This document shows positions 7,509 to 46,850 of a stretch of DNA of 64,000 nt, in pieces. Source of the DNA: Paramicrobacterium agarici. GTDB taxonomy: Bacteria > Actinomycetota > Actinomycetes > Actinomycetales > Microbacteriaceae. The notes below the pieces were generated by a model. The model was not told the DNA's origin and made no database searches. It saw nothing but the letters and a program-made list of their open reading frames with translations. The first letter of the stretch is position 1, and every line of letters starts with the position of its first letter. The translations under genes were made by a program, and so were the position numbers. The stretch is from contig NZ_PDJE01000001.1 of NCBI RefSeq assembly GCF_002563955.1, positions 3,038,001-3,102,000 on the forward strand. The letters are read 5' to 3'.

Positions 7509-8399
7509 ATGCCTGACGCCGGTGCCTACATGGCCCAAGAGCTAGCCAGCCAACCCGAGATGTGGTCGCGCGCGATTACGCAGAGCGACGACGCAGCGAA
7601 GCTTCCTGCGGCAGGACAACGCGTCGCCGTCGTCGGGTGCGGAACCTCGTGGTTCATGGCGCAATCCTACGCGGCCCTGCGCGAAACCGCTGGGCTCGGA
7701 ATCACCGATGCCTTCGCCGCAAGCGAGGCGTTCATCGACCGCGACTACGACGCGATCATCGCGCTGACGCGGTCAGGCACCACGACCGAGGTACTCGAGC
7801 TGCTGGAGCACGTGGGCGACTCGACGCGTACGATCGCCATCATCGGCGACACCGAGACCCCCATCGTCAACATGGTCAACGATGTCATCGCGTTTCCCTA
7901 CGCTGACGAGAAGTCCGTCGTGCAGACGCGTTTCGCCACGACCGCGCTCACGTTCCTGCGCCACTCGACGGGCGCCGACGTCTCGGCACAGATCTCTGAC
8001 GCCGAGAAGATTCTCGACGAGCAGCTGCCGACAGAACTCGTCAACGCCGAGCAGTTCTCGTTCCTCGGCCGCGGCTGGACGACCGGCCTCGCCCACGAGG
8101 CCGCGCTGAAGATGCGCGAAGCATCGCAGTCGTGGACCGAGTCGTACTCTGCCATGGAGTACCGCCACGGCCCGATCGCGATCGCCGCTCCCGGCCGCGT
8201 GAGCTGGATGTTCGGAGAGGCCCCGAGCGGGCTCGCCGACAGCGTCGCCCTCACCGGCGCGCACTTTGAAGACGCTCGCATCGACCCGCTCGCCGATCTC
8301 GTGCGCGCCCAGCGCGTCGCCCTTCAGCGGGCGCTCAACGCCGGGCTCGACCCCGACACGCCGCGCAACCTCACGCGGTCGGTGGTTCTCGACGTATGA
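7509..8399 (+). CDS. agaS: Double-SIS sugar isomerase/deaminase, AgaS-like
   Basis: 296 aa with two SIS domains (about 20-140 and 175-280), the fold of the GlmS isomerase half. VVGCGTSWFMAQ and ALTRSGTTTEVLE are the SIS phosphate-binding loops; SAMEYRHGP is the conserved C-terminal active-site block. In this context (kinase, deacetylase, PfkB kinase, aldolase) it most likely deaminates and isomerises galactosamine 6-phosphate to tagatose 6-phosphate, as AgaS does. A GlcN-6-P deaminase of NagB-II type is the alternative; a separate classical nagB lies at 47450-48229. First gene of a six-gene chain joined by 4-bp ATGA/GTGA overlaps. Confidence 0.82.
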   Translation: MPDAGAYMAQELASQPEMWSRAITQSDDAAKLPAAGQRVAVVGCGTSWFMAQSYAALRETAGLGITDAFAASEAFIDRDYDAIIALTRSGTTTEVLELLEHVGDSTRTIAIIGDTETPIVNMVNDVIAFPYADEKSVVQTRFATTALTFLRHSTGADVSAQISDAEKILDEQLPTELVNAEQFSFLGRGWTTGLAHEAALKMREASQSWTESYSAMEYRHGPIAIAAPGRVSWMFGEAPSGLADSVALTGAHFEDARIDPLADLVRAQRVALQRALNAGLDPDTPRNLTRSVVLDV

Positions 8400-9331
8400 C
8401 CTCACTGCTCGGCCCCGGAGCTCCCGTTCTCGCGTTCGACGTGGGCGGCACTGATCTCAAGTCCGCCCTCGTCGCGCCCGACGGCGAACTGCTCGGGGTG
8501 CAGCGCACACCGACGCCCGTTCAGCCGGAGCACACGGAGAAGTCGGTGCTCGAGACGATCACTCGTCTGGGAGCGGCGTTGCGCGAGCAGCATCCATCGA
8601 TCTCGCCTGAAGCGGTCGGACTCATCGCCCCCGGCGTCGTCGACGACGAGCGCGGTCTCGGCCTCTTCGCCGAGAATCTGAACTGGCATGACGTGCCGTT
8701 CCGCGACCTCGCTGAAAAGGCGTTCGGACTGCCGGCATCGTTCACCCACGATGTGCGGGCCGCAGGCGAGGCCGAGTACCGGCTTGGCCCGGCGTCGGCG
8801 TACCGCGATGCGCTCGTCGTCACGATCGGCACGGGCATCGCGGCAGCGATCTTCATCGATGGCAAGCCCGTCGCCGGCGATGGCTACGCGGGAGAGCTCG
8901 GCCACTCGGTCATCGCACCGGGAGGCGAGCCATGCGCGTGCGGGGGCCGCGGCTGCCTTGAGGCAATCGCGTCGGCCGCGTCGATCACCCGCCGCTACAA
9001 CAGGCTCACACCGTCGCCCGTCCCCGGTGCCCGCGAAGTACTCGAGAGGGCCCGCGCGGGAGACACGGATGCCGAGGCGGTCTGGATCACGGCCCTCGAC
9101 GCCCTCGGGCTCGGCCTGTCGCACGCCACGGCGCTGCTCGCCCCCGAGGTCATTGTGCTCGGCGGCGGGCTCGCCCAGGCCGGCGACGCCCTCTTCAATC
9201 CCGTTCGCGAGCGCCTGTATTCGCACTTGACGTTCCACAGGCGCCCAAAGCTCATGCACGCCAGCATCGGTCAGAACGCCGGCCTGGTTGGCGCGGCCCT
9301 GCGCGCTCGTGCTGTGCTGGAGACACCATGA
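8396..9331 (+). CDS. ROK-family sugar kinase (probable N-acetylhexosamine kinase)
   Basis: 311 aa. The N-terminal FDVGGTDLKSALV is the phosphate-1 loop of ROK kinases, VVTIGTGIAAAIF the ATP-binding region, and GELGHSV with CACGGRGCLE the ROK zinc site (His plus three Cys). There is no N-terminal helix-turn-helix, so it is an enzyme and not a regulator. ATP-dependent 6-phosphorylation of GalNAc (or GlcNAc) fits the operon: the next steps are deacetylation, deamination, a second phosphorylation and aldol cleavage. Starts in a 4-bp overlap with the SIS gene and ends in one with the PfkB gene. Confidence 0.88.
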   Translation: MTSLLGPGAPVLAFDVGGTDLKSALVAPDGELLGVQRTPTPVQPEHTEKSVLETITRLGAALREQHPSISPEAVGLIAPGVVDDERGLGLFAENLNWHDVPFRDLAEKAFGLPASFTHDVRAAGEAEYRLGPASAYRDALVVTIGTGIAAAIFIDGKPVAGDGYAGELGHSVIAPGGEPCACGGRGCLEAIASAASITRRYNRLTPSPVPGAREVLERARAGDTDAEAVWITALDALGLGLSHATALLAPEVIVLGGGLAQAGDALFNPVRERLYSHLTFHRRPKLMHASIGQNAGLVGAALRARAVLETP

Positions 9332-10248
9332 TCATCACGGTCACTCCCAACCCAGCGCTCGACGCCACGATCACACTCGAGCGCCTGACGCCCGGTGCCA
9401 CACACCGTGTCGCCCCCGCCGAGCTGCGCGCCGGCGGCAAAGGCATTAACGTCGCGCGTGTGCTGACCGATCAGGGTGAGGATGCTGTCGCCATCGCGCC
9501 CGTGAGCGCGACGGAGGCCGCGTTCAGCGCCGACCTCGGCGACGTGCCGCACTCCCTCGTGGGAACGCCGTGGCCGCTGCGCCGCTCAACCGCGATCGTC
9601 GAGACCGAGGGCGGAACGACGACGGTCATCAACGAATCGGGAAGCCCACAGCCGCTCACCGTATGGACGGAGCTGCACGACGTCGTGACGTCGCGACTGC
9701 CTCGCGCGCGATGCCTCGTCGTCTCGGGCAGCACGCCTCCCGAGGCGCCCGACGACCTCGCGGCAGACCTCATCGCCCCCGCGAACGCCGCCGGCGTCGC
9801 CACGATCGCCGACGCGACAGGCGCACAGCTTCTCGGGGCTGCACGCGCGGGAGCACAGCTGCTCAAGCCCAACCGCGACGAGCTGCGCGACACGACAGGT
9901 GAATCGGATGCTGTCGCGGGAGCCCACGCCCTGCAGAACCTCGGCGCGGGAATCGTTGTCGTCTCGCTCGGCGAAGAGGGAATGATCGCCGTACCCGCGG
10001 ACGGTGCACCCGTGCGCCACGCGCGCCTCGACCGCGTGCTGCGCGGAAACCCCACGGGAGCGGGAGACGCGGCCGTCGCATCGCTTGCGGCACACCTCGC
10101 CGCCCGAGAGACCGACATCGACACGCTGCTGCGGCGGGCCGTCGCCTGGTCGGCAGCCGCCGTGCTCATGCCGCTGGCCGGCAGCATCCATTCTTCTCAT
10201 ACCGACCTCGCCCGTGACGTGACGATCACGACCCTGGAGACTCCATGA
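9328..10248 (+). CDS. PfkB-family hexose-phosphate kinase (tagatose-6-phosphate or 1-phosphofructokinase type)
   Basis: 306 aa. MIITVTPNPALD at the start and GGKGINVARVL (about 32-42) are signatures of the 1-PFK/LacC branch of ribokinases; NPTGAGDA near 232-239 holds the catalytic Asp, and KPNRDEL near 182-188 is also conserved. The usual GDxxGAGD reads GNPTGAGD here, as in many 1-PFK members. In this operon the likely reaction is tagatose 6-phosphate plus ATP to tagatose 1,6-bisphosphate. Fructose 1-phosphate kinase activity cannot be excluded. Translationally coupled on both sides by 4-bp overlaps. Confidence 0.88.
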   Translation: MIITVTPNPALDATITLERLTPGATHRVAPAELRAGGKGINVARVLTDQGEDAVAIAPVSATEAAFSADLGDVPHSLVGTPWPLRRSTAIVETEGGTTTVINESGSPQPLTVWTELHDVVTSRLPRARCLVVSGSTPPEAPDDLAADLIAPANAAGVATIADATGAQLLGAARAGAQLLKPNRDELRDTTGESDAVAGAHALQNLGAGIVVVSLGEEGMIAVPADGAPVRHARLDRVLRGNPTGAGDAAVASLAAHLAARETDIDTLLRRAVAWSAAAVLMPLAGSIHSSHTDLARDVTITTLETP

Positions 10249-11099
10249 CCCTCACCCCGACGCGCAGCATCATCGACGACGCCGTGCAGGCGCGCTCAGG
10301 CGTCGCCGCATTCAACGTGATCCACCTCGAGACGGCCGAGGGCCTCGTCGCCGCCGCCGAACGCTCGCAGCTGCCGGTCGTGCTGCAGATCTCGCAGAAC
10401 TGCGTCGGCTATCACGGCGCGCTCGAACCCATCGCGACCGCGTGCGCTGCCCTCGCCGAGCAGTCGAGCGCGAGCGTCGCCCTGCACCTCGACCACGCCG
10501 AAAGCGAAGACCTCACGCGCGAGGCCGTCGACCTCGGGTTCGGCTCAGTCATGTACGACGGCGCGAAGCTGCCGTATGGCGAGAACGTCGCGGCAACGGC
10601 CCGCAGCGTTGCCTACGCGCACGCGGCGGGCGTCTTCGTCGAGGCCGAGCTCGGCGAAGTGGGCGGCAAAGACGGTGCGCACGCTCCCGGCGTACGCACC
10701 GACCCGGCCGAGGCTTCGGACTTCGTCGCCGAGACGGGAGTCGACGCTCTCGCCGTGGCCGTCGGCTCATCGCACGCCATGACCGAGCGCGTCGCGGCGC
10801 TCGACCTTGACCTCATCTCGCGCCTGCACGCCGCCCTCGACGTGCCGCTCGTGCTGCACGGCTCGTCTGGCGTCGCCGACGATGTGCTCACGCTCGCCGT
10901 GCGCGCGGGCATGACGAAGATCAACGTGTCGACGCACCTCAATGGCGTGTTCACGGGGGCGATTCGCGAGTTTCTGGCGACGAACCCGGCCGTCGTCGAC
11001 TCGCGCAAGTACCTCGCCCCGGCGCGGGCTGCTCTGTCGGCCGAGGCCGAGCGACTGCAGCGACTGTTCGCCCTCGCCCCGCACGGAGGCACAACGTGA
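10245..11099 (+). CDS. Class II ketose-bisphosphate aldolase (tagatose/fructose bisphosphate)
   Basis: 284 aa, the KbaY/GatY/FbaA fold. LHLDHAES carries the catalytic Asp and a zinc His; EAELGEVGGKDG and VLHGSSG supply further zinc and phosphate contacts; INVSTHLN near 230 matches the DxxT/INxxT phosphate loop. It would cleave tagatose 1,6-bisphosphate to glyceraldehyde 3-phosphate and DHAP, the last step of GalNAc breakdown. No KbaZ/GatZ partner is visible nearby. Four-base overlaps with the PfkB and DeoR genes. Confidence 0.9.
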   Translation: MTLTPTRSIIDDAVQARSGVAAFNVIHLETAEGLVAAAERSQLPVVLQISQNCVGYHGALEPIATACAALAEQSSASVALHLDHAESEDLTREAVDLGFGSVMYDGAKLPYGENVAATARSVAYAHAAGVFVEAELGEVGGKDGAHAPGVRTDPAEASDFVAETGVDALAVAVGSSHAMTERVAALDLDLISRLHAALDVPLVLHGSSGVADDVLTLAVRAGMTKINVSTHLNGVFTGAIREFLATNPAVVDSRKYLAPARAALSAEAERLQRLFALAPHGGTT

Positions 11100-35359: not shown

Positions 35360-36595
35360 TCACAGTCCGACTAAACGGGCGAGTCCAGCTTCGTCCACGA
35401 TCGGGATGCTGTACTCGCGCGCTTTCTTCGCTTTGCCTGACAGCGAATCAGGGTCAGCGGCAGCGACGAGAGACACCTTCTTCGTCACGTTTGGATGGGT
35501 CTTGAAGCCTCGAGACTCGATGATCGCGCTCCACTCAGATCGGGGCCTACTCATCTCTCCGGTAAGCACAACCATGTCTTCCGGGCAAAGTGCGAACGCC
35601 TCCATCGCCGGCAATGGCGCCGTCATCGGAGTAGCAACTGCTGCCGGAGGAGTGGCAAGCGCATCGGCAACGGCTTCCACCGGAATCTCAAGAGCCCGAG
35701 CCACCTTCTCAAGCTCTCGTCGCTCGGCTTCTGTGACGATTCCGTCCATCCACGCGGCACTGACCAAGTCGTCGACATAGCCAACGTGCAACACCTCGGC
35801 TGCTCGGCGGTCTAGGCCGATCTCGTCGGCGAGAGCGACCAACATCCCAGCCTCGCTGACCGAAATCGAACGATCCAACAGGCATCGATCGAGCAGGGCA
35901 AGATATTCAGATTCCGCGCCAGGCTCGACGTCACGGTCGAGCCTGGCGGAGAGACGATTCAAGAAACTGGATTGCGGCTCGACAGGACCCTTACGTTGTT
36001 GCCAGAGCACACCTTTCGTGGGAAGCATCGGATAGGAATACGCGCCGCCGCTCCGTTCCCAATCTGCCCAGAACTGGTTCCAATCCGGCCACATGGCACT
36101 TTCTCTGCGGTACACCGCGAGAAGTTGAGCGGCCGCAAATGCATCATCCCCCGCGCGGTGAGCGCTTCCAAGAGGTATCCCAAACGACTCACAGGCGGCC
36201 GCAAGCGAGGCGGAACCACCGAGGCCAAAACTGTGGGCAAGCCGCATCGTGCAGAGCGAGGGTATCTGTGGGTGCAGCAGATACCCCGCGCGCTCAAACT
36301 CGGCCTGCAAAAACCGCAGGTCGAAGTTCACGTTATGGGCGACGAACACACGACCTTGCAGGAGTCCCGCAAGCTCCGGAACGATGTCTGCGAAGTCCGG
36401 CGCATCAAGAACATCAGAAGCTCGGATGCCGTGAATGCTCTGTGACCCAAGATCACGCTGCGGGTTAACGACGGTCTCCCACCGCCCGGACACCGTGCCG
36501 TCTGACTCAACGTGCACGACTCCGATTTCGATTACTCGATGGTGGTACGAAGGGAGAATCCCAGTGGTCTCGAAATCGACGACTGCGTATCCCAT
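35360..36595 (-). CDS. DEDDh 3'-5' exonuclease with TerB-like middle and C-terminal BRCT domain
   Basis: 411 aa. Residues 1-165 are a DnaQ-type exonuclease: VVDFETTG (D7, E9), HNVNFD (D92), HRAGDD (H146, D151). Residues 230-305 look like a TerB-type helical domain with acidic pairs (LADEIGLDRRAAEVLH; GIVTEAERRELEKVA). Residues 335-411 form a BRCT domain (DMVVLTGEMSRPRSEW; KKVSLVAAADPDSLSGKAKKARE) of the NAD-ligase type. Proteins of this make-up are scattered in actinobacteria and presumably act in DNA repair. It is convergent with the Fic gene (stop codons 25 bp apart) in the same lower-GC segment. Confidence 0.88.
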   Translation of the reverse strand: MGYAVVDFETTGILPSYHHRVIEIGVVHVESDGTVSGRWETVVNPQRDLGSQSIHGIRASDVLDAPDFADIVPELAGLLQGRVFVAHNVNFDLRFLQAEFERAGYLLHPQIPSLCTMRLAHSFGLGGSASLAAACESFGIPLGSAHRAGDDAFAAAQLLAVYRRESAMWPDWNQFWADWERSGGAYSYPMLPTKGVLWQQRKGPVEPQSSFLNRLSARLDRDVEPGAESEYLALLDRCLLDRSISVSEAGMLVALADEIGLDRRAAEVLHVGYVDDLVSAAWMDGIVTEAERRELEKVARALEIPVEAVADALATPPAAVATPMTAPLPAMEAFALCPEDMVVLTGEMSRPRSEWSAIIESRGFKTHPNVTKKVSLVAAADPDSLSGKAKKAREYSIPIVDEAGLARLVGL

Positions 36596-37219
36596 TCACA
36601 ACTCTTTCGTATCTGCCGACGAGTACGCGCCGAAGCGTTCTTCAACTCAACGCGTCACGAGATCAATTGTCCGAGACAACGCGTAACGGCAGATAGCCCA
36701 CGAACAGGGGTAACAAGCCGTCGTGATAGGACGTGCGTTGCCCACGTGCGTTCGCACTACGTCAGGGGCGACCGCTTCCCTCGAGAATCGTGATCGTGAC
36801 AATTTTCATGCCGATCACGAATTTCAGGGAAAGCAGTCCTTCCCTCGACATCGACCTTCCAGGTAGGCCTCGCTCTGATGCCCTACGAAACGATCTTTTC
36901 GACGTCACGAACGCGAAGCTTTCCTGACATTCATTGCGGCAAATAGCGCCTCACAGGTCTCACGATCATCAGTGCTCTTGAGACCAGGTTGCCCATCGTT
37001 TTCAGCGTGACCTTTCGGCCTGGCTCACAAGATTTGAACCTGCGACCCCTTGGGCCGCATCGACGGCATCAGCGTGGGGCCACTGGTCGTGCCCGTAATT
37101 GCTATAGGAGAAGCAGCTATGCATCTTCTGCCAGGTGCGGGATGCCGAGCACGGCGAAGGGATCATCATCTCGCGCGATGATATTCCTGCGGCGCGGCTC
37201 GTGCCTGCAGCAGTCGTGA
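36596..37219. other. Gene-free 624-bp stretch at the edge of the lower-GC segment
   Basis: No frame with good codon use or recognisable product. It holds a hairpin, TCGTGATCG (36788-36796) with CGATCACGA (36812-36820), and near the right end a tRNA-like fragment. This looks like leftover sequence from an integration or deletion event. Confidence 0.5.
37019..37053 (-). other. tRNA 3'-end-like fragment (possible attachment-site remnant)
   Basis: On the minus strand AAGGGGTC-GCAGG-TTCAAAT-CTTGT reads as a variable loop, T-stem, T-loop and T-stem of a tRNA; the T-stem pairs with wobbles. It resembles the 3' half of actinobacterial tRNA-Pro. No acceptor stem, D-arm or anticodon arm fits upstream, so it is not a working tRNA. 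Such 3' halves are left as att copies by tRNA-integrating elements. Confidence 0.4.
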
Positions 37220-37780
37220 TTACGCCAGCGTCGAGCGGAGAGTGTTCAGGGCGTCCGCAATGATGTCGGCGAGAGGCGTTTCGTCGTCGCGAGCGAGCCA
37301 CTCCTGCACCGAGACATAGAGCAGCGTCACGCTGGTTTCGGCCAGCAGCGCAGCTTGCGTTGCGGAGACACCGCGCGCAATCAGGGCGTCATGCACGACT
37401 TTGCCCACCGTCTCACGCTTCTGCAGGTCACGCTCCCGCAGGCCAGGGTCTGAACTTACGATCTCACGCCGCATCCGGAGTTCGTCGCGACGCCCCTCGA
37501 AGCGCGTCTCGGCGAACGTGCGGAGGCTCGTCATAATCAAATCGAGCGGTTCGTCGTCTGGCGCAGCATCCGCCAACATCTGGGCAGCTTCCGCCGGTAC
37601 GTCCTCTCCCCCGAAGACCACCTCGCGCTTATCGGCGAAGTACCGGTGAAAAGTGCGCGTACTGAGCCCAGCCCGCGCCGTGATCTCGGGAACCGTCGTC
37701 GCCGCAAAGCCTTGCTCGGCAAAGAGCTCGAAGGCCGCCTTCTCGAGCCTTCGGCGCGCGCCCGGTTCCCATCTGCTCAC
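37220..37780 (-). CDS. TetR-family repressor
   Basis: 186 aa. Residues 8-55 are the TetR HTH ([44 protein letters not shown]); the rest is the helical ligand and dimer domain. GTG start at 37780 lies six bases after TAGACT on the minus strand, so the mRNA is likely leaderless, and the first of two perfect operators covers its -35 region. Divergent from the dehydrogenase-like gene it should control. Confidence 0.92.
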
Positions 37781-37786
37781 GTCTTC

Positions 37787-37792
37787 AGTCTA
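37787..37792 (-). promoter_or_regulatory. -10 box TAGACT of a leaderless tetR promoter
   Basis: TAGACT, six bases, GTG at 37780 on the minus strand. Operator 1 begins three bases upstream of it. Confidence 0.5.
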
Positions 37793-37794
37793 AA

Positions 37795-37845
37795 TGATGA
37801 CATGGCGTGTCATCAGGCGTACAGTGATGACACGTCATGTCATCA
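37795..37845. promoter_or_regulatory. Two TetR operators in tandem
   Basis: TGATGACA-N5-TGTCATCA occurs twice, at 37795-37815 and 37825-37845. Arms are identical in both; only the five central bases differ. Centres are 30 bp apart, about three helical turns, so two dimers would sit on one face and shut both divergent promoters. Confidence 0.8.
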
Positions 37846-37860
37846 ACCGAGGAGCAGACA

Positions 37861-38895
37861 ATGAGCAACGACGTATGGATTGTGGGCGGCGCAGGCCGAA
37901 GCGGACGACACATCGCGACACAGCTGCGGCAGCGCGGCATCGAGCCGGTGCTCGTCGGACGGAACGCCGATCGCCTGGCCGAAGCGGCGAAGGACGGCGA
38001 GCGAACGGTCGTGGCCCACTCGATCGATGAGATTGTCGCAGAGGTGCGGCGACAGCATCCTGCCGTCGTGATCAACACAGTCGCACCGTTCGCCGAGACA
38101 GCCGCGGAACTCGTGTCGACGGGCGCGCACTATATCGACATCGCCAACGATATGGGTGCGATCTCGGGACTACTCGACCGCAACGAGAAACTTTCCGCGC
38201 GCGGACAAACTGCCGTGACCGGCGCCGGGTTCGGCGTGACAGGGACCGAGAGCATCCTCGTGAAGCTCCTCGAAGGTCGCCCGACACCTGCACGGGTTCG
38301 CGTCGACATGCTGCCGTCACTGGAGACCGAGGCAGGAACGGTCGGCGAATCGCTCGCCGCGTCTCTCATCACCGGGTTGGCGTACCGCGACCCGCGGGGC
38401 AGCCGGTTCGGGAGGAATCTCATGCGGCTCGTCCTGCCGGACGGATCGGAGGTGTCGACGGCGAGCATGCCTCTCGGCGACCTAGCGGCCGCGCGCCACG
38501 TCAGCAAGGCGCCCACCGTGATCGCTGCCTCGAGCATGGCACCCACCGGACCGATCCGTTTTGTCGCGCCACTCGCATCGACTCTGCTGGCTGTGCGGCC
38601 GCTTCAGGAGTTCGCCCAGCGCCAGCTGGCGCGCGTGACCGTCAAGGCACAGCCGCGCCCTCGGGAGTACTCGTGGGCGCACGCACACGTTGAGTGGGAT
38701 GACGGCAGCGTGCGCGACGGCTGGCTGCGCATCGGCGATGCGTCGACGTTCACGGGCACGGTGCCGGCGGAGGTCGCTCGCCGTCTGCTCGAGGGCGACG
38801 GGCGCGCGGGTGCGTTCACGCCGGCGTCACTCTTCGGCACCGACCTGGCCGAGGCGTGCGGCGCCGAGTACCTGCCGGGGCTCGTTGCCGCGTGA
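37861..38895 (+). CDS. Saccharopine dehydrogenase-like NAD(P)-binding protein
   Basis: 344 aa. N-terminal Rossmann fold (DVWIVGGAGRSGRHIATQLRQRG, residues 4-26) of the saccharopine-dehydrogenase NADP-binding family, followed by a long catalytic or dimer part of unknown specificity (AHYIDIANDMGAISGLL near 97-113). GAGGAG precedes ATG 37861. Controlled by the divergent TetR through two operators. Relatives act on lysine intermediates, lipids or homospermidine, so the substrate cannot be given. Confidence 0.8.
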   Translation: MSNDVWIVGGAGRSGRHIATQLRQRGIEPVLVGRNADRLAEAAKDGERTVVAHSIDEIVAEVRRQHPAVVINTVAPFAETAAELVSTGAHYIDIANDMGAISGLLDRNEKLSARGQTAVTGAGFGVTGTESILVKLLEGRPTPARVRVDMLPSLETEAGTVGESLAASLITGLAYRDPRGSRFGRNLMRLVLPDGSEVSTASMPLGDLAAARHVSKAPTVIAASSMAPTGPIRFVAPLASTLLAVRPLQEFAQRQLARVTVKAQPRPREYSWAHAHVEWDDGSVRDGWLRIGDASTFTGTVPAEVARRLLEGDGRAGAFTPASLFGTDLAEACGAEYLPGLVAA

Positions 38896-38958
38896 GCGCC
38901 GCGGACTTCTGACCCGTCACGTCGCGTCACAACTCGGGTCGGAGACGCAGCGGCACAA

Positions 38959-38964
38959 TACAAT
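38959..38964 (+). promoter_or_regulatory. -10 box TACAAT of a leaderless promoter
   Basis: TACAAT, then six bases, then the GTG start at 38971 of the fused hydrolase-deaminase gene. No ribosome site is seen. Confidence 0.6.
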
Positions 38965-38970
38965 GAGCGA

Positions 38971-41900
38971 GTGCCGCGCCCCGACGATTCTGCTCCAGCA
39001 TCCCCCACCGAGCACCAGGCAGAGGCCGCGTCAATTCTTGCGGCGGTGAATCGGATCACGAATCGACTGATCGCCGGCACGCGGTTCGCGATTCTCGGCG
39101 GAGCAGACACGGCGAGGGCGCTGCGGGCGATTCTGCACGGCATGGGCGGACACACGGTCTCCCCCGCGCAGTGCGAGATCGTGGTTCTTCTGGGTGGCCT
39201 CACCGATGCAGAGCATGCGGAGATTCGCTCATGGCTGCTCGCTGAATACGCCAAGGATGACGACGGTGCTTCTCGACTGCCGATCGTCGTCGATCACGCC
39301 GGGGTCTTGAGTGCCGGGGCGTCAGAGCCCGCGGACCTTCTTGGTGACAGCGAGCGCGTGCTCCCCGAAGGCCTCCGGGCCGTGCGGGCAGCACGTGGCG
39401 AGATCGTCGTCATCGACACCGAGAGCCTGCAGAAACCGCCGCAGCGCCAGGCATCTGCGCACGAGGACTATCTCGCCGAACGCGGCCTGAGCCGCATCGA
39501 CTGGGCGGCGACAGCGATGCCCGTCACGCGCAAGTTGGCATCACAGCTTGCGGCCACCGGCGCTGTGCGCGGAGTGCGCATCGGAATCGTGCTGGTGCTT
39601 GAGCCGAAGACGGCAGTTCTCGCGATCGAGCTGGCCCGCGCGGGCGCGGACGTGCGCGTGTTCGCGCCGGCGAACGAGGTCGATCCCGAAGCTGCGGCGG
39701 CGCTTCGCACGCGCGGGATCGTCGTGCTGGGCTCCCCCGACGCGACAGAAGAGGACGACGCGAAGCAGGCCCTGGACCTCGTGCGATGGCATCCGGACCT
39801 GCTGATCGACGACGGCGCCCACCTCATTCGCCTCGTGCACGAGCAACCAGATGCCCTGGAACAGCTGCGTGGCGCCGCCGAGGAGACCACGAGCGGCGTG
39901 CGGCCGCTGCGTGAGATGGATGCTGCAGAAAAGCTCGCCGTTCCCGTGGTCCCCGTGAACGACGCTCGCGTCAAGACGCTGTTCGATAACCGGTACGGCA
40001 CCGGACAGACGTGCGCGTTCGCGATCGTCGACCTGCTCGAGGAGGCACACTCGCGCAGGATCAGCGCGTGCGATCCGCTCATCGCGACGTGGCTCGTGGT
40101 CGGCTACGGACCCGTCGGCGAAGGCGTCTGCCGGCACGCCCGTGCACTCGGCGCCCGCGTGATCGTCGCGGAGATCGATCCCGTGCGCGCTCTTGCCGCC
40201 GAGGTCGACGGTTTCGAGGTGATGCCGGCGGAACACGGCGCACGAGAAGCGGACATCGTGGTGTCGGCAACGGGGGTGCGCGGCACGATCCATGAGCAGC
40301 TGATCAGCGCCGCTAGCAACGGCACGATCTTCGCCGTCGCGGGCGGCACGGATGGCGAACTCGAGGCGCCGCACGCGACGTGGACCGACCGTGGACCGCA
40401 GATCAGCGAGGTTGCGCTCGGCGAGCGCCAGGTGATTGTGCTCGCGCACGGGCACGGCGTGAACTACACAGCATCCGGTGGCAACCCCATCGAGATCATG
40501 GACCTCTCGTTCGCCGCGCAGCTTGCCGCGGTCGAGCAGCTCGTCGCGGCGGGGGTTCTCACGGACCCATCCGCGCTCGCACCCGGTTTGCACCCGCTCG
40601 ACCCTGAGCGCGAGAACGATATCGCTCACCTCGCGCTCGCCGCGCGGCATGGCGCCGCAGCATCCGGGCATTCTGCCCCCGTGTCTCGCGTGGCGGCGAC
40701 GGGTTCCGAGCCCAGCCGCTACTCACGAGACGCCGCGCCCACGGTGCTGCAGACGGATGACGCCGCTCACGCCACCGTCACGGTGTACAGCGCGCCGCTC
40801 GTGATCCCGGTGACGGCACCGCGCATTCGCGACGGCGCTGTCGCCGTGCGCGGCGAGCGGATTCTGCACGTCGGCGAGCGCCAGTGGGTGCTGCAGTCGC
40901 TGCGCGATGCCGGGATCGACTTCGTCGAAGAGCACTGGGACGGGGTGATCACACCGGGGCTCGTCAACGCGCACACGCACCTGCAGTACACGCGCATGGC
41001 CGACGTCGCCACACGGCGATACAACGGCTTCGACGACTGGGCCGCGGCATTCGACCGGGTGTACGACAGCGACGGCGCACGGCACGACTGGAGCGCGGCC
41101 GCCGCCGAGGGTGCGCGGCTCGCCGTGGCGTCGGGGACGACAGCCCTGGCCGACGTCGTGACCGACCGCGAGGCGGTGTCGGCGCTGCACGACGCCGGCC
41201 TGCACGGCATCGCCTACTGGGAAGTCATGGGCTGGAGTAACGCCGACTGGCGCGCCCACGGACGCGACGCCGCGATCGCCGACCTCGACAGCATGCCCGC
41301 CACCCCGGGCGTCGGCGTCTCACCGCACGCGCCGTATTCGCTCGAGGTGCAGCCTCTTCTCGACATTCCCGATGTGGTGCGCAACCGCGGCATGCGGCTG
41401 CACATCCACCTCGCCGAAGCGCACTTCGAGAACGAGAATGTCTCGAGCGACGACGCGTGGGTGGGCCTGAACGCCGAGAGCTTCAGAGCGCTGCGCAGCC
41501 GCGGCGTCGGTGTCAGTTCGACGCAGTTCGTCGATCAGCTCGGCGTGCTCGGCCCCGACTGCCATATCGCCCACGGCATCTACATGACCGCCCGCGACCG
41601 TTCGCTGCTGCGCGCACGCGGAACCTCCGTCGCACTCTGCCCGCGCTCGAACGACGTGATCGGGCTCGACGCACCGCCCGTCGCGGCATACCTGCGCGAG
41701 GGAAATCTCATCTGCGTCGGCACTGACTCGCTCTCGTCATCGCCGAGCCTCGACCCGCTCGCAGACGTGGCGCACCTGCACAGAATCGCGCGCGAACAAG
41801 GCTATGCCGACGACGATCTGCACCAGCGGCTCTTCCACGCCGCGACACTCGGCGGAGCGCACGCCCTCGGCCTCAGCGCCGGACCGCAGCGCATCGGGCA

Positions 41901-42060
41901 GCTCGCCGTCGGCGCCCTCGCGGACCTCGCGTTCTTCGCCGTGAGCGACACGTCGCCGCGAGCAGCACTGGCCGAGCTCGTCGAGGCCGGAGCCGGAACA
42001 TGCCGGCGCACGATCGTCGCCGGCGAGACCGTCTTTCGCAGAGAGGAACAGTCGGCATGA
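38971..42060 (+). CDS. Fusion of S-adenosylhomocysteine hydrolase-like protein and amidohydrolase (adenosine/SAH deaminase-like)
   Basis: 1029 aa in one frame. Residues about 180-550 align by eye with AdoHcy hydrolase: EETTSGVRPLREM, PVNDARVKTLFDNRYGTGQT (keeping the Lys and Asp of the active site), and the NAD-binding VVGYGPVGEGVCRHARALGARV; the usual C-terminal KPxxYRY is missing and the N-terminal 170 residues do not look like standard AhcY. Residues about 600-1029 are an amidohydrolase of the MtaD/5'-deoxyadenosine deaminase group: HTH at 668-670, HIHLAEA, GVGVSPHAPYS, and GTDSLSSSPSLD. A plausible role is joint removal of SAH or adenosine to inosine and homocysteine. GTG start is probably leaderless. 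The cupin gene overlaps its end by 4 bp. Confidence 0.85.
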   Translation: MPRPDDSAPASPTEHQAEAASILAAVNRITNRLIAGTRFAILGGADTARALRAILHGMGGHTVSPAQCEIVVLLGGLTDAEHAEIRSWLLAEYAKDDDGASRLPIVVDHAGVLSAGASEPADLLGDSERVLPEGLRAVRAARGEIVVIDTESLQKPPQRQASAHEDYLAERGLSRIDWAATAMPVTRKLASQLAATGAVRGVRIGIVLVLEPKTAVLAIELARAGADVRVFAPANEVDPEAAAALRTRGIVVLGSPDATEEDDAKQALDLVRWHPDLLIDDGAHLIRLVHEQPDALEQLRGAAEETTSGVRPLREMDAAEKLAVPVVPVNDARVKTLFDNRYGTGQTCAFAIVDLLEEAHSRRISACDPLIATWLVVGYGPVGEGVCRHARALGARVIVAEIDPVRALAAEVDGFEVMPAEHGAREADIVVSATGVRGTIHEQLISAASNGTIFAVAGGTDGELEAPHATWTDRGPQISEVALGERQVIVLAHGHGVNYTASGGNPIEIMDLSFAAQLAAVEQLVAAGVLTDPSALAPGLHPLDPERENDIAHLALAARHGAAASGHSAPVSRVAATGSEPSRYSRDAAPTVLQTDDAAHATVTVYSAPLVIPVTAPRIRDGAVAVRGERILHVGERQWVLQSLRDAGIDFVEEHWDGVITPGLVNAHTHLQYTRMADVATRRYNGFDDWAAAFDRVYDSDGARHDWSAAAAEGARLAVASGTTALADVVTDREAVSALHDAGLHGIAYWEVMGWSNADWRAHGRDAAIADLDSMPATPGVGVSPHAPYSLEVQPLLDIPDVVRNRGMRLHIHLAEAHFENENVSSDDAWVGLNAESFRALRSRGVGVSSTQFVDQLGVLGPDCHIAHGIYMTARDRSLLRARGTSVALCPRSNDVIGLDAPPVAAYLREGNLICVGTDSLSSSPSLDPLADVAHLHRIAREQGYADDDLHQRLFHAATLGGAHALGLSAGPQRIGQLAVGALADLAFFAVSDTSPRAALAELVEAGAGTCRRTIVAGETVFRREEQSA

Positions 42061-42479
42061 CGTACGACGCCATTCGCGAGCTGTCGCTTGAACAGCATCC
42101 TGAGGGCGGCTGGTTCCGCCGAACCTACACGGCCGCCGACGCGCTGGCCACACCCGGCGGGGAGCGCCCCGCTGCGACGCTCATTCACTTCTGGCTGCCT
42201 GCAGGAGAGCACTCGCGCTGGCACGTCGTCGCCTCGGACGAGATCTGGATGTGGCACGGCCCCGGCTCCCTGCGACTCGAGCTTGGCGGAACGAGTGACC
42301 AGCCGCGCGACACGGGCGACGGCGGACTGCTCGCCGCACCCGGAACGGTCGGCGCGACACAGCAGCTGATCGTTCCAGGCGGATGCTGGCAGCGCACGGT
42401 TCCGGGCGACGACGACGTGCTCGTGAGCTGCCTCGTGACGCCCGGCTTCGACTTTGCCGATTGGCGCCTCGCCGACTGA
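42057..42479 (+). CDS. Cupin-fold protein, DUF985 family
   Basis: 140 aa. LSLEQHPEGGWFRRTY (9-24) and LIHFWLPAGEHSRWHVVASDEIWMWHGPGSL (about 43-73) are blocks of the DUF985/Cupin_5 family; VPGGCWQRT is the second cupin strand pair. Some members bind metal; no activity is established. Start ATG in a 4-bp overlap with the fused hydrolase gene implies a shared transcript. The longer frame from 42000 is inside that gene. Confidence 0.85.
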   Translation: MTYDAIRELSLEQHPEGGWFRRTYTAADALATPGGERPAATLIHFWLPAGEHSRWHVVASDEIWMWHGPGSLRLELGGTSDQPRDTGDGGLLAAPGTVGATQQLIVPGGCWQRTVPGDDDVLVSCLVTPGFDFADWRLAD

Positions 42480-42581
42480 CCGAGCAACAATTCGTCATTC
42501 CCGCGCGCGAGCGTGCCCGCGACGATAGTCTTTCTCGGTGGCGCGGCATCCCGAACGCGCCCCGTCCCCGAGGAGCCCTCC

Positions 42582-43427
42582 GTGAAATCACGTTCCGTTC
42601 TGCGTGCTGTTGCCATCGCCAGCGCCGCCGCTGCTGCGATCGCCTTGTCCGCCTGCTCGGCATCAACCCCAGAGGATGCTGCCGCCGGCGACGATTCGGG
42701 ACTGCAGACCGTCACGCCGGGCAAGTTCACCATTGCCACGGGCGAGCCCGCCTACTCCCCCTGGGTTGAGAACGACGACCCCGAGTCGGGCGAAGGGTTC
42801 GAGGCGGCAGTCGCCTACGCCGTCGCCGGCCAGCTGGGCTTCGACAAGTCGGACGTCGTCTGGATCCGCACGCCGTTCGACACCGTGATCGCGCCGGGGC
42901 CAAAGGACTTCGACATCAACATTCAGCAGTTCTCGGCAAACGAAGACCGCGAGAAGGCCGTCGACTTCTCATCGCCGTACTACGAGACAACGCAGGGTGT
43001 CGTGAGCGTCGAGGGCAGCCCTGCCGCCGATGCGACATCGCTCGCTGACCTCGCCGACGTGAAGGTCGGCGTGGCCGCCGGATCGACATCGATCGCCGCC
43101 GTGAAGGAAGCCATCGGCACGGACCCCGCGATCTTCAACAGCAACGAAGACACCGTGCAGGCCCTCATCGCCGGCAACATCGACGCCCTCGTCACCGACC
43201 TGCCGACAGCGTTCTACAACGCCAACGCGGTTCTCGACAACGGCGTTCTCGTCGGCCAGTTCGAGAGCTCGGCCGGAGGCGACAAGCTCGCCCTCCTGCT
43301 CGAGAACGACTCGCCACTCACCGACCCGGTGACCGAGGCCGTTGACGCTCTTCGCGAAGACGGCACGCTCGACGAGCTCGCCGAGAAGTGGCTCGCCGAC
43401 AACGCCGGCGCAACGGTTCTGTCGTAG
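42582..43427 (+). CDS. Polar amino acid ABC transporter, substrate-binding lipoprotein
   Basis: 281 aa. Signal peptide with lipobox LSAC (about residue 22-25), then the family 3 solute-binding fold (GKFTIATGEPAYSPWVE; FDINIQQFSANEDREKAVDFSSPYYET; LKVGVAAGSTS-like segment). GTG start after GAGGAG. Anchored outside the membrane, it would deliver a polar amino acid or opine to the permease encoded next. Which amino acid cannot be read from the sequence. Confidence 0.93.
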   Translation: MKSRSVLRAVAIASAAAAAIALSACSASTPEDAAAGDDSGLQTVTPGKFTIATGEPAYSPWVENDDPESGEGFEAAVAYAVAGQLGFDKSDVVWIRTPFDTVIAPGPKDFDINIQQFSANEDREKAVDFSSPYYETTQGVVSVEGSPAADATSLADLADVKVGVAAGSTSIAAVKEAIGTDPAIFNSNEDTVQALIAGNIDALVTDLPTAFYNANAVLDNGVLVGQFESSAGGDKLALLLENDSPLTDPVTEAVDALREDGTLDELAEKWLADNAGATVLS

Positions 43428-43444
43428 GAGCGCCTGCACACCCC

Positions 43445-44329
43445 GTGACGAACGATATAGACACGAGCACGCCGCCCGGCTCGGCGCGTCCCGAACCGAG
43501 TCGGGTCGAGCTGGACAGGCGCGCGTTTCGACGCCGCCAGACGGCACGGTCGCTGCTGATCAGCGTCGTCAGCACGATCATCTTCGCGGTGATCGTGTGG
43601 CTCGTTCTGGTGAACAGCCCCGGCTGGGACGAGGTGCGGCGTTCGTTCTTCGACATCGACACGGCGGTCGCGTCTTTCCCCAGCATCCTTGTCGGTCTCT
43701 GGCTGAACATTCAGGTGCTCTTCTTCGCCGCGATTCTCGTCGGCATTTTCGGCTCGCTTCTGGCCATCGCGCGCACGCTGCGCGGCGCCGTCTTCGCGCC
43801 GATTCGCCTGGCAGCGGCGATATACACGGACTTCTTCCGCGGCATCCCTCTGCTGCTTGTTCTCTACCTCGTCGGCTTCGGCGTTCCCGCCCTCGGCTTC
43901 ACCGACCGTCTGCCCATGCAGTTCTGGGGAACAATCGCTCTGACCCTGACGTACTCGTCGTACGTCGCCGAGGTGCTGCGCGCCGGAATCGAGGCCGTGC
44001 ACCCGTCGCAGCGCATGGCCGCGCGCTCGCTCGGCCTCGGCTACTCGAAGACCCTGCGACTCGTCGTGCTCCCCCAGGCCGTGCGCAAGGTGACGCCGGC
44101 CCTCATGAACGACTTCGTGTCGATGCAGAAAGACGTGGGGCTGATCTCGGTTCTCGGCGCCGTCGACGCGATTCGCGCCGCGCAGATCGAGGTCGCGAGC
44201 GTCTACAACTTCACCCCGTATGTCGTCGCCGGCGTGCTCTTCGTTCTGCTCTCGTGGCCGATGATCCGGCTCACCGACTGGTACACGGCACGCGCACAGC
44301 GCCGCGAGCAGATGGGAGGACAGGTATGA
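43445..44329 (+). CDS. Polar amino acid ABC transporter permease (HisM/GlnP type)
   Basis: 294 aa. An N-terminal basic cytoplasmic tail of about 40 residues, then five or more helices; EVLRAGIEAVHPSQRMAARSLGLGYSKTLRLVVLPQAVR is the EAA loop that docks on the ATPase. GTG at 43445 lies 17 bp past the binding-protein gene with GGAG between. Overlaps the ATPase gene by 4 bp. Probably works as a homodimer since only one permease gene is present. Confidence 0.93.
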   Translation: MTNDIDTSTPPGSARPEPSRVELDRRAFRRRQTARSLLISVVSTIIFAVIVWLVLVNSPGWDEVRRSFFDIDTAVASFPSILVGLWLNIQVLFFAAILVGIFGSLLAIARTLRGAVFAPIRLAAAIYTDFFRGIPLLLVLYLVGFGVPALGFTDRLPMQFWGTIALTLTYSSYVAEVLRAGIEAVHPSQRMAARSLGLGYSKTLRLVVLPQAVRKVTPALMNDFVSMQKDVGLISVLGAVDAIRAAQIEVASVYNFTPYVVAGVLFVLLSWPMIRLTDWYTARAQRREQMGGQV

Positions 44330-45096
44330 CCGACGCGAACACAACCCAGGGTCCTGTCCTGCGCGTCTCGGGCGTGCAGAAATGGTTCGGCGATACTGCC
44401 GTGCTGCAGGGCATCGACATCGAGGTCGCCGAGCACGAGGTCGTCGTGCTCATCGGCGCGAGCGGATCGGGCAAGTCAACGCTGCTCAAGACCATCAACC
44501 TGCTCGAGCGCGTCGACGACGGCCAGATCTTTCTGCAGGGCGACGACATCACCGACCCTCGCGTCAACGCCGACCGCGTTCGGGCTCGCATCGGCGTGGT
44601 ATTTCAGCACTACAACCTCTTTCCGCACCTCTCGGTGCTGCACAACATCACGCTCGCGAGCCGCAATGTCTTCAAGATCGGCAAGGCCGAGGCAGAGTCG
44701 CGCGGGCGCGAGCTGCTGCGGCGCATCGGTCTCGAAGAGAAAGCCAGCGAGTACCCCGACCGGCTTTCGGGCGGCCAGCAGCAGCGCGTCGCGATCGCCC
44801 GCGCCATCGCCACAGAGCCCGAACTGCTGCTGCTCGACGAGATCACGAGCGCTCTCGACCCCCAGCTCGTCGGCGAAGTTCTCGATCTCGTCGGCGAGCT
44901 GAAGCAGGCGGGAAGCACCATGGTCATGGCGACGCACGAGATGTCGTTTGCGCGGCAGGTCGCCGACCGCGTCGTGTTTCTCTCGAACGGCCGCATCGTC
45001 GAGTCGGGCCCGCCGAGCCAGCTTTTCGATGCGCCGCAGAACGACGAGACCAAGGCGTTTCTCTCTCGCGTGCGGCAGGCGAGCCCGGGCCTCTGA
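44326..45096 (+). CDS. Polar amino acid ABC transporter ATP-binding protein
   Basis: 256 aa. Walker A GASGSGKST, Q loop FQHYNLFPHL, signature LSGGQQQRVAIARA, Walker B LLLLDEITSALD, and switch His in MATHEMSF. This is the GlnQ/HisP type. Completes a three-gene importer (binding protein, permease, ATPase). Walker B has DEITSALD where DEPTSALD is usual, a common variation. Confidence 0.95.
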   Translation: MTDANTTQGPVLRVSGVQKWFGDTAVLQGIDIEVAEHEVVVLIGASGSGKSTLLKTINLLERVDDGQIFLQGDDITDPRVNADRVRARIGVVFQHYNLFPHLSVLHNITLASRNVFKIGKAEAESRGRELLRRIGLEEKASEYPDRLSGGQQQRVAIARAIATEPELLLLDEITSALDPQLVGEVLDLVGELKQAGSTMVMATHEMSFARQVADRVVFLSNGRIVESGPPSQLFDAPQNDETKAFLSRVRQASPGL

Positions 45097-45127
45097 CCTC
45101 TCGCGGCCGAGCGTCGTCGACGCGACG

Positions 45128-45133
45128 TAGAAT
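45128..45133 (+). promoter_or_regulatory. -10 box TAGAAT of a leaderless promoter
   Basis: TAGAAT, six bases, then GTG 45140. Confidence 0.5.
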
Positions 45134-45139
45134 TGAAGC

Positions 45140-45493
45140 GTGACTTCAACACCTGCGCCCGCACGCGTCAGCGTGAATGACCTCGTGCGGTTCGTTCTCG
45201 AGCTCTTCGCCTTCGTCTCGCTGGGCCTGTGGGGCTTCCTCTGCTTCGAGCTGCCCTGGAACATCGTCATCGGAATCGGCGCCCCCGTGATCGCGATCGT
45301 GCTCTGGGCTCTGTTCCGCTCCCCCAAGGCCGTCTTCACCATGGACCCTTTCGGCAAAGCGATCGTCGAGATCGCCGTCATGGGCACGGCCGTCTTCGGC
45401 TGGTGGGACATGGGTCAGCCGATCGTCGCCGCGATCTTCGCCATCGTCGCCGTCACGAGCGGCGTCATCAACGGCCGCAGGGAGATCGGCTGA
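45140..45493 (+). CDS. YrdB/DUF2568 family membrane protein
   Basis: 117 aa, four hydrophobic helices. LVRFVLELFAFVSLGLWGF and VIEIAVMGTAVFGW are typical of the YrdB (DUF2568) family, of unknown role. The GTG start lies six bases after TAGAAT, suggesting a leaderless mRNA. The GlcD-type oxidase gene begins 2 bp after its stop and is probably co-transcribed. Confidence 0.85.
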   Translation: MTSTPAPARVSVNDLVRFVLELFAFVSLGLWGFLCFELPWNIVIGIGAPVIAIVLWALFRSPKAVFTMDPFGKAIVEIAVMGTAVFGWWDMGQPIVAAIFAIVAVTSGVINGRREIG

Positions 45494-45494
45494 C

Positions 45495-46850
45495 ATGACC
45501 GAGGTCGTCGCCCAGCTCATCGAGGCGCTCGGCGATGCGGTATCAGTGGATGCTGCGCAGCTCGACGCCGCGCAAGCCGACAAGTCGGGGCACCGTTCCG
45601 GCAGCTCGCCGCTCGCGATCGTGACCGCGCGCTCCATCGACGACGTTCAAGCGACACTGCGCATTGCTACGCAGACCCGCACTCCCGTCGTCACGCGCGG
45701 CGCTGGCACGGGACTCGCTGGCGGCGCCGTCGGCGGCTCCGGCGAGATCATGCTCTCGACACTCGCCATGGACCGTGTGTTCGAAATCAACAGCTCCGAT
45801 CTGCTCGCCGTCGTCGAACCCGGCATCCTGAACGGTCATTTCAACGACATTCTCGCCGAGCAGGGTCTGTGGTTCGCACCCGATCCCGCGTCGAAGGCGA
45901 TCTCGACGGTCGGCGGCAACATCGCCACGAACGCCGGCGGCCTGCTGTGCGCGAAGTACGGCGTCACGCGCGACGCCGTGCTCGGACTCAAGGTCGTGCT
46001 GCCCGACGGCCGGCTGCTCACCCTGGGGCGCCGCAGCGTCAAGGGCGTCACCGGGCTCGACCTCACGGCGCTCATGGTCGGCTCAGAGGGACTGCTCGGC
46101 GTCATCGTCGAGGCGACGGTGCGCATCCGCCGCGCGGTGCCGGGCACGGTGGCGACGATCGCCGCGTTCTATCTGGGGGTTCGGGATGCGGCGGCAAGCT
46201 CCGCCGCGATCACCGCAGCGGGACTGCAGCCCGCCGTCATGGAGCTCATCGACCCGCACGTGCTTCGGGCGATCGACGCGTTTCACGGCAGCTCGCTGTC
46301 GCAGCGCGGTGCCGCCCACCTCGCCGTGCAATTCGACGGACCCGGCGCCGAAAACGACGCCCGTCGCGCGCTCGAGATCATCACGCGCCTCGGCGGAGAC
46401 GCCGACCTCACAACGGACCGCGACGAAGCCGACGAGCTTCTCGCCGCGCGTCGCGCCGCGCATGGGTCGCTTGCCGCGCTCGGCACGACGCTCATTGAAG
46501 ACGTCTCGGTGCCGCGCTCGGCACTGCCTGACATGTTCGACGCGATCGCCGACATCGAGAAACGCTATGGCATCAGCATCCCGACGCTCGCGCACGCGGG
46601 AGACGGCAACCTGCACCCCAATTTCATCTTCGACGGTCCCGAGGTTCCCGACGAGATCTGGGATGCCGCGGGCGAGCTGTTCACCGCGGCGCTGAAGCTC
46701 GGCGGCACCCTCACGGGCGAGCACGGCATCGGCGTGCTCAAGAAGCGCTGGCTCGGCGACGAACTCGGCGACGATCAGCTGCAGCTGCAACGGCAGATCA
46801 AGCAGGTCTTCGATCCCCTCGGCATCCTGAACCCCGGCAAGGTGTTCTAG
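45495..46850 (+). CDS. FAD-linked 2-hydroxyacid oxidase, GlcD/D-lactate dehydrogenase family
   Basis: 451 aa. N-terminal PCMH-type FAD domain (TPVVTRGAGTGLAGGAVGGSGEIMLST; ISTVGGNIATNAGGLLCAKYGVT) and C-terminal FAD-oxidase domain ending GTLTGEHGIGVLKKRWL, with the His-rich active site. Oxidises glycolate or D-lactate (or a similar acid), passing electrons to the membrane pool. No GlcE/GlcF partners follow, so D-lactate or D-2-hydroxyglutarate oxidation is as likely as glycolate. Coupled to the YrdB gene upstream. Confidence 0.92.
   Translation: MTEVVAQLIEALGDAVSVDAAQLDAAQADKSGHRSGSSPLAIVTARSIDDVQATLRIATQTRTPVVTRGAGTGLAGGAVGGSGEIMLSTLAMDRVFEINSSDLLAVVEPGILNGHFNDILAEQGLWFAPDPASKAISTVGGNIATNAGGLLCAKYGVTRDAVLGLKVVLPDGRLLTLGRRSVKGVTGLDLTALMVGSEGLLGVIVEATVRIRRAVPGTVATIAAFYLGVRDAAASSAAITAAGLQPAVMELIDPHVLRAIDAFHGSSLSQRGAAHLAVQFDGPGAENDARRALEIITRLGGDADLTTDRDEADELLAARRAAHGSLAALGTTLIEDVSVPRSALPDMFDAIADIEKRYGISIPTLAHAGDGNLHPNFIFDGPEVPDEIWDAAGELFTAALKLGGTLTGEHGIGVLKKRWLGDELGDDQLQLQRQIKQVFDPLGILNPGKVF

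Follow-up and report, generated by a model that had tools for sequence, protein, structure and literature searches.

Why should a bacterium that already has an S-adenosylhomocysteine hydrolase (AhcY) carry a divergent relative of that enzyme joined in one polypeptide to a deaminase-type amidohydrolase? The question is raised by a gene of Paramicrobacterium agarici in a stretch of 64,000 nucleotides, referred to here as the window (contig NZ_PDJE01000001.1, positions 3,038,001 to 3,102,000), in which a frame of 1029 residues with a GTG start is open from end to end. The answer that we tentatively prefer, with somewhat less than even confidence, is that the fusion belongs to a cluster of an importer, a deaminase, and a histidine-free enzyme resembling S-inosylhomocysteine (SIH) hydrolases, which acts on a nucleoside of the S-adenosylhomocysteine (SAH) or S-adenosylmethionine (SAM) type; we infer both the substrate and the reaction. 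No description of the gene pair or of the cluster was found in the open-licence PMC full-text literature.

An AhcY-like family without the catalytic histidines

The N-terminal half is AhcY-like, as a preliminary description of this DNA had held. In profile searches, residues 165–557 match adenosylhomocysteinase (NF004005, 306.4 bits against a cut-off of 275; PF00670, E 1.7e-23), and residues 659–1021 match Amidohydro_1 (E 1.1e-31). A model of residues 1–573 (mean predicted local distance difference test score, pLDDT, 90.2; predicted template-modeling score 0.90) has AhcY structures as its top Foldseek matches (E 2.4e-33), and P. furiosus AhcY with inosine is among the best of them (root mean square deviation 2.0, target TM-score 0.85). 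The GYGxVG motif for nicotinamide adenine dinucleotide (NAD) is kept. The KPxxYRY-type C-terminal tail is absent, again as previously described, and the canonical AhcY of the same genome ends in KLEHYRY; archaeal AhcYs are also reported to have a shortened C-terminus (PMC10978960). With the other curated AhcY models, however, the half scores under the cut-offs: 275.8 bits with TIGR00936 (497.6), 274.8 with NF004009 (485), and 171.6 with NF004010 (512).

The kept lysine and aspartate of the active site had been recognized correctly; what had been overlooked is that all three histidines of AhcY are replaced (Table 1). Residue counts refer to 54 distinct sequences from 59 family rows, with L059, whose frames are broken, dropped and L047 cut at the place of the third histidine. 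We take V209, D281, K335, D339, and N505 to be the equivalents of human H55, D131, K186, D190, and H353, respectively. In the same presumed human numbering, the equivalents of D131, E156, N181, K186, D190, N191, and N346 are invariant in the 54 sequences, and because K335, D339, N340, D281, and E305 of the window protein do not vary among them, the AhcY-like half does not appear to be a decaying domain. R287 and S308 are likewise invariant and are specific to the histidine-less family. The gate region reads G459-T460 instead of GHF, and the place of human F302 is occupied by Val in 37 sequences, Ile in 14, and Thr in 3. All three histidines are kept, in contrast, in six of six canonical actinobacterial AhcYs. 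Two members added later, from genome G205 and the second copy of genome G538, have the same replacements.

In AhcY, the lysine is described as the base for the 3'-OH, the aspartate as that for C4', and a histidine as the proton donor to sulfur, and the gate residues of the human enzyme are H301-F302 (PMC13406329). The motif histidine is reported to be important for catalysis, and enzymes with HxExK to prefer SIH, those with HxTxE(Q) SAH (PMC10978960). Compared with canonical AhcY, the window half thus has the NAD motif and the Lys/Asp/Asn/Glu/Asp core and lacks the three histidines (HxTxQ(E), GHF, GHP); compared with SIH hydrolases (SIHHs), it has the ExK pair, E211/K213, and its family lacks the motif and gate histidines. 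The family would therefore seem to keep the machinery for binding a hypoxanthine nucleoside and forming a 3'-keto enolate, without the usual proton donor and gate. The kept ExK points to a hypoxanthine, that is, deaminated, base, and hence favors deamination before cleavage over the removal of free adenosine; the earlier suggestion that the deaminase may act first on an SAH-type substrate gains support from it.

On a tree of 29 rows, 19 family rows form one clade (100/99), which an AhcY of G538 with intact histidines joins (100/98), and six canonical AhcYs are set apart (100/100). Midpoint rooting places three archaeal-type PDB sequences on the side of the canonical enzymes, and the histidine-less family is consequently not nested in archaeal-type sequences. 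In pairwise comparison, the window half shares 30.5% identity with the canonical AhcY of its own genome and 37% and 40% with copies A and B of G538.

Table 1. Features of the fusion gene and its neighbors in the window. Locus counts refer to 39 loci (30 from a collection of named genomes and 9 from genomes with G numbers), which are partly non-independent, L033 and L034 being near copies.
Feature	Position	Strand	Evidence and remarks
Fusion gene	38971..42060	+	Open frame of 1029 residues; same fusion in 5 further genomes; GTG start not proven
N-terminal extension, likely decayed AhcY cofactor domain	38971..39450	+	Residues 1–160; TNxLIAG pattern, hhalign, helix/strand order
AhcY-like domain, histidine-less	39451..40650	+	Residues 161–560; profiles, residue alignment, model, Foldseek
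V209, place of catalytic motif histidine	39595..39597	+	V 24, T 20, I 10 of 54; H in own canonical AhcY
E211-P-K213, ExK half of HxExK	39601..39609	+	E and K in 54/54
D281, C4'-proton base	39811..39813	+	54/54
K335 and D339, 3'-oxidation	39973..39987	+	Both 54/54
G459, place of gate histidine (human H301)	40345..40347	+	G in 54/54
N505, place of third histidine	40483..40485	+	N in 53/54, one row cut
Linker	40651..40779	+	Residues 561–603; pLDDT below 50 at residues 563–573
Amidohydrolase (deaminase-type) domain	40780..42057	+	Residues 604–1029; profiles, metal ligands; model mean pLDDT 88.0
Cupin_5 (DUF985) gene	42057..42479	+	PF06172, E 2.3e-35; downstream in 36/39 loci
Solute-binding lipoprotein, SBP_bac_3	42582..43427	+	PF00497, E 4.1e-20; 35/39 loci; start by inspection, longest frame from 42513
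Permease of ATP-binding cassette (ABC) importer	43388..44329	+	PF00528, E 2.1e-14; 35/39 loci; longest frame, true start possibly further in
ABC ATPase	44326..45096	+	Orthologues in L039 and L046 match ABC_tran; 34/39 loci

The deaminase half

The complete HTH metal motif ascribed to the C-terminal half stands: the ligand pattern HTH, HxH..E, H, D, together with a PHAPY motif, is invariant in 33 aligned rows, and the ligands are also kept in the deaminases of G205 and G538. By profile, the closest solved relatives include PA3170 (4dyk/4gbd), other nucleobase/nucleoside deaminases, and TM0936. The former description of the half as MtaD-like holds insofar as it is of the HxH nucleobase-deaminase kind, and fails in that every named deaminase family that it matches scores far below its cut-off. 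Since no curated cut-off is reached, the half is, judged by its profile scores, a member of an unnamed subfamily, and it likely deaminates an adenine nucleoside. Aminofutalosine deaminase was considered and rejected (92.6 bits against a cut-off of 320). At an alignment threshold of E 1e-90, only the P. agarici genome and G538 have this deaminase among 296 genomes sampled from the phylum, and at 1e-75 none of the other members of a set of 66 genomes from G538's class has it; wider amidohydrolase relatives occur in 46 of the 296 at E 1e-45.

Fusion and adjacency of the two genes

The uninterrupted frame seen in the window recurs elsewhere, and a frameshift or sequencing artefact was rejected as very unlikely because one-frame fusions are also present in Microbacterium sp. 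MPKO10 (77% over its best-matching segment), Leucobacter sp. cx-328 and cx-42, Rarobacter faecitabidus, and genome G242. A deaminase tree of 35 rows, 5 of them fused and L034 left out, requires two changes for the fused state, which most simply arose when neighboring genes fused on two separate occasions. Among 297 genomes sampled from the order, both halves were found in 34, always adjacent and on one strand (8 of 95 genera); two of the 34, the window's own and G242, have them fused, and the joint match in G075 holds a stop codon. A collection of named genomes gave 31 loci, one of which, L062, was set aside as a weak match of 59 residues in an Anaerolineae metagenome-assembled genome. The named carriers belong to Microbacterium, Leucobacter, Rarobacter, Bifidobacterium, Gardnerella, Actinomyces, Schaalia, Trueperella, Scrofimicrobium, and Pauljensenia, with one record titled Sanguibacter. 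The genes are fused in 5 of 40 loci and separate in 34, in 15 of which a candidate start codon forms a four-base overlap with the AhcY-like stop. In the remaining locus, L059 of Scrofimicrobium canadense (7938-10603), both genes appear to lie in several broken frames, representing either pseudogenes or sequencing errors.

The unusual N-terminus noticed earlier is real, and its resemblance to an extra, decayed AhcY cofactor domain had been missed. A TNxLIAG motif, identified by pattern, precedes the AhcY-like domain in 32 of the 39 loci. The divergent cluster of G205 (L065, 2028-11199) has a separate upstream open reading frame (ORF) for a degenerate AhcY cofactor domain, which reaches 28.3 bits with PF00670, barely over the cut-off of 27, and resembles the extension (hhalign probability 93, E 2.9e-7). 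Set directly against AhcY, the extension gives a weak match (probability of 20, E 0.0011), and a Pfam search of the extension alone found no AhcY domain; the helix/strand order predicted for it parallels, by eye, that of the internal cofactor domain of the model. The extension is thus likely the remnant of a decayed tandem AhcY that is still intact in G538.

A housekeeping route exists apart from the pair

The preliminary description left room for the fusion to stand in for AhcY, an idea that the genome does not bear out: a separate canonical AhcY is encoded elsewhere in it (TIGR00936, 585 bits against a cut-off of 497.6). Twenty of the 34 pair genomes have a canonical AhcY above the cut-off and no LuxS match, and the other 14 have LuxS, accompanied by MTA/SAH nucleosidase (MTAN; MTA, 5'-methylthioadenosine) above its cut-off in 13 and by a weak match only in G205. 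The split is clean, no genome having both AhcY and LuxS or neither. G538 also has a canonical AhcY (629.8 bits). Replacement of a lost ahcY is therefore rejected for P. agarici and is not needed in the sampled pair genomes, and since all 34 already carry canonical AhcY or LuxS, the pair represents an additional route.

NCBIfam NF004005, an adenosylhomocysteinase rule, accepts the histidine-less proteins at 306-375 bits and is a possible source of misnaming; genomes such as those of Bifidobacterium may consequently be credited in metabolic models with an AhcY that is perhaps not there.

The surrounding cluster and its variants

A translationally coupled cupin gene had been predicted, and its start indeed lies within the stop codon of the fusion (ATGA, 42057). 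The cupin and the genes of a family-3, amino-acid-type importer follow downstream on the same strand in most of the loci compared (Table 1), with intervening genes in some; as a control, three other neighbors in the window each recur in 1 of 39 loci. The DUF985 structure 3LZZ is described as holding GDP, a purine nucleotide (PMC11594714, PMC8704077), which fits a role of the cupin family in purine metabolism and proves nothing.

G538, which belongs to another class, has a cluster of an importer, an AhcY with intact histidines, a histidine-less AhcY, and a deaminase. Its importer genes are 43-54% identical to those of the window, and no cupin match was found in the cluster. The two AhcY-like genes are in tandem with overlapping ends (L075, 9900-12889), and only one of them retains the three histidines; this intact enzyme, copy A, has HxExK, GHH, and GHP. 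The G205 cluster instead contains an inosine-uridine nucleoside hydrolase (PF01156), a luciferase-like monooxygenase, and different transporter genes, among them a sugar-type importer. In G173 (L068, 5110-6260) and G028, luxS and an MTAN gene lie directly beside the pair and divergent from it. MTAN-like matches beside the pair also occur in G237 and G288, where they exceed the cut-off only with pieces added, and in G068 and G248, where they remain under it.

Possible functions

In the scheme that we prefer, the family-3 ABC importer would bring in an amino-acid-bearing nucleoside, most likely SAH or a close relative such as SAM, and the amidohydrolase would first deaminate its adenine to hypoxanthine. 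The AhcY-like half would then bind the resulting 5'-substituted inosine via the ExK pair, oxidize C3' with bound NAD by the action of K335/D339, abstract the C4' proton by means of D281, and release the 5' group; the 5' chemistry would proceed without the usual histidines and hence unlike that of AhcY. Fusion would place the deaminase and the cleaving enzyme on one chain. We count in favor of the scheme the occurrence of an intact HxExK AhcY with an importer and a deaminase in G538, as well as the luxS and MTAN neighbors and the nucleoside hydrolase of G205, and, beside these, the AhcY fold and profile, the invariant ExK pair and catalytic core, the conservation of importer and cupin downstream of the pair, and the GDP held by the DUF985 structure.

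Several observations weigh against it. Without the motif and gate histidines the AhcY-like domain may be inactive or active in another way, and in AgmF, the mutations H56A and H299A are each reported to abolish activity (PMC8599513). G205 has Gln at the E156 equivalent (EQTTSG for EETTSG), and importer and cupin matches are absent from its locus. The deaminase scores far under the family cut-offs (PRK07228, 96.8 against 522 bits; PRK15493, 35.9 against 779; PRK08418, 92.6 against 320), the acidic residue that follows the tryptophan of PA3170 (WPAE) has, by eye, no conserved counterpart in it, and no AhcY-like match was found near its wider amidohydrolase relatives in the 12 loci taken. An SAH or SAM riboswitch was not detected above the gathering score in positions 36000-46000 of the window, where a search to E 1 gave four matches, all below that score and to animal RNA families, nor at the gathering score in seven loci, which gave tRNAs only.

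There is a sizeable minority chance that the substrate is a nucleoside other than SAH or SAM, such as a natural product of nucleoside type or the 5'-methylthio or 5'-deoxy form of inosine, whose 3'-keto intermediate undergoes another elimination, with the importer serving the product or an amino acid unconnected with it. The change of the three 5'-side histidines to small residues throughout the 54 sequences would be understandable then, as would a deaminase that is not named an MTA/SAH deaminase by score and the different gene content of the G205 cluster, and relatives of AhcY with other reactions do exist, for example the dehydratase AgmF (PMC8599513). Nevertheless, D281, the base at C4' through which the 5' group is lost, does not vary, the intact HxExK enzyme of G538 fits SIH, and the importer conserved with the pair belongs to the amino-acid class.

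A more specific idea, which lies inside both the preferred scheme and this rival and which we consider unlikely, is that the histidine-less clade represents a novel enzyme type cleaving a sulfonium rather than a thioether, with imported SAM or its stereoisomers being deaminated to S-inosylmethionine and this being cleaved into methionine and inosine. No proton donor would be needed because methionine leaves as a neutral thioether, Val/Thr/Ile and Gly in place of two 5'-side histidines would leave space for the additional methyl, and the tandem AhcYs of G538 would serve SIH (the intact copy) and S-inosylmethionine (the histidine-less copy).

The AhcY-like half might also be a pseudo-enzyme or regulatory partner, comparable to AHCYL/IRBIT, which would act as a sensor of NAD or inosine and assist the deaminase or a second AhcY. 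Loss of the motif and gate histidines, the additional core change in G205, and the position of the histidine-less copy of G538 next to an intact AhcY, as expected of a partner, lend this some appeal, but the invariance of the catalytic Lys, Asp, Asn, and Glu and of the NAD motif over 54 sequences, along with the observation of no intact HxExK partner in clusters of the window's order, leaves it only a small chance. The proposal of the preliminary description that reversible SAH hydrolysis by an ordinary AhcY is pulled forward by the fused deaminase removing adenosine agrees with the AhcY fold and the NF004005 score but is very improbable, given that the motif and gate histidines are lost in 54 of 54 sequences, that ExK replaces TxQ, that the score falls short of the TIGR00936 equivalog cut-off, and that the pair genomes have canonical AhcY or LuxS anyway.

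If the preferred scheme is true, Bifidobacterium, Gardnerella, Actinomyces, and Schaalia would be among the actinobacteria able to take up and salvage compounds resembling SAH or SAM, by a route that would stand beside the AhcY and MTAN/LuxS routes and be built on AhcY chemistry without its histidines.

Comparison with known systems

The deaminases of MTA, SAH, and 5'-deoxyadenosine (PDB 4dyk/4gbd, 4f0r, 1p1m) are among the closest solved relatives of the deaminase half and share its HxH..E..H..D pattern, but the window protein scores far below their curated cut-offs and, by eye, does not conserve the acidic residue on the ribose side. Canonical AhcY shares the fold, the NAD domain, and the Lys/Asp/Asn/Glu core with the window half; it differs by its three histidines, a TxQ motif for the base, and its C-terminal tail, and it forms a separate clade. 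AgmF of angustmycin biosynthesis is, in a similar way, an AhcY relative with another reaction, that of a dehydratase, although it is reported to keep and need His56 and His299 (PMC8599513). Another close system is that of Methanocaldococcus jannaschii, in which DadD, an amidohydrolase-superfamily deaminase, and SIHH (EC 3.13.1.9), an AhcY-type enzyme with ExK, are described, and in which deamination precedes cleavage, as proposed here for the window pair (PMC10978960). The M. jannaschii enzymes are, however, separate proteins, and SIHHs keep the catalytic (HxExK) and gate histidines, whereas in the window system both histidines are gone, the deaminase and the AhcY-like enzyme are encoded by neighboring genes or by a fused one, and importer and cupin genes accompany them.

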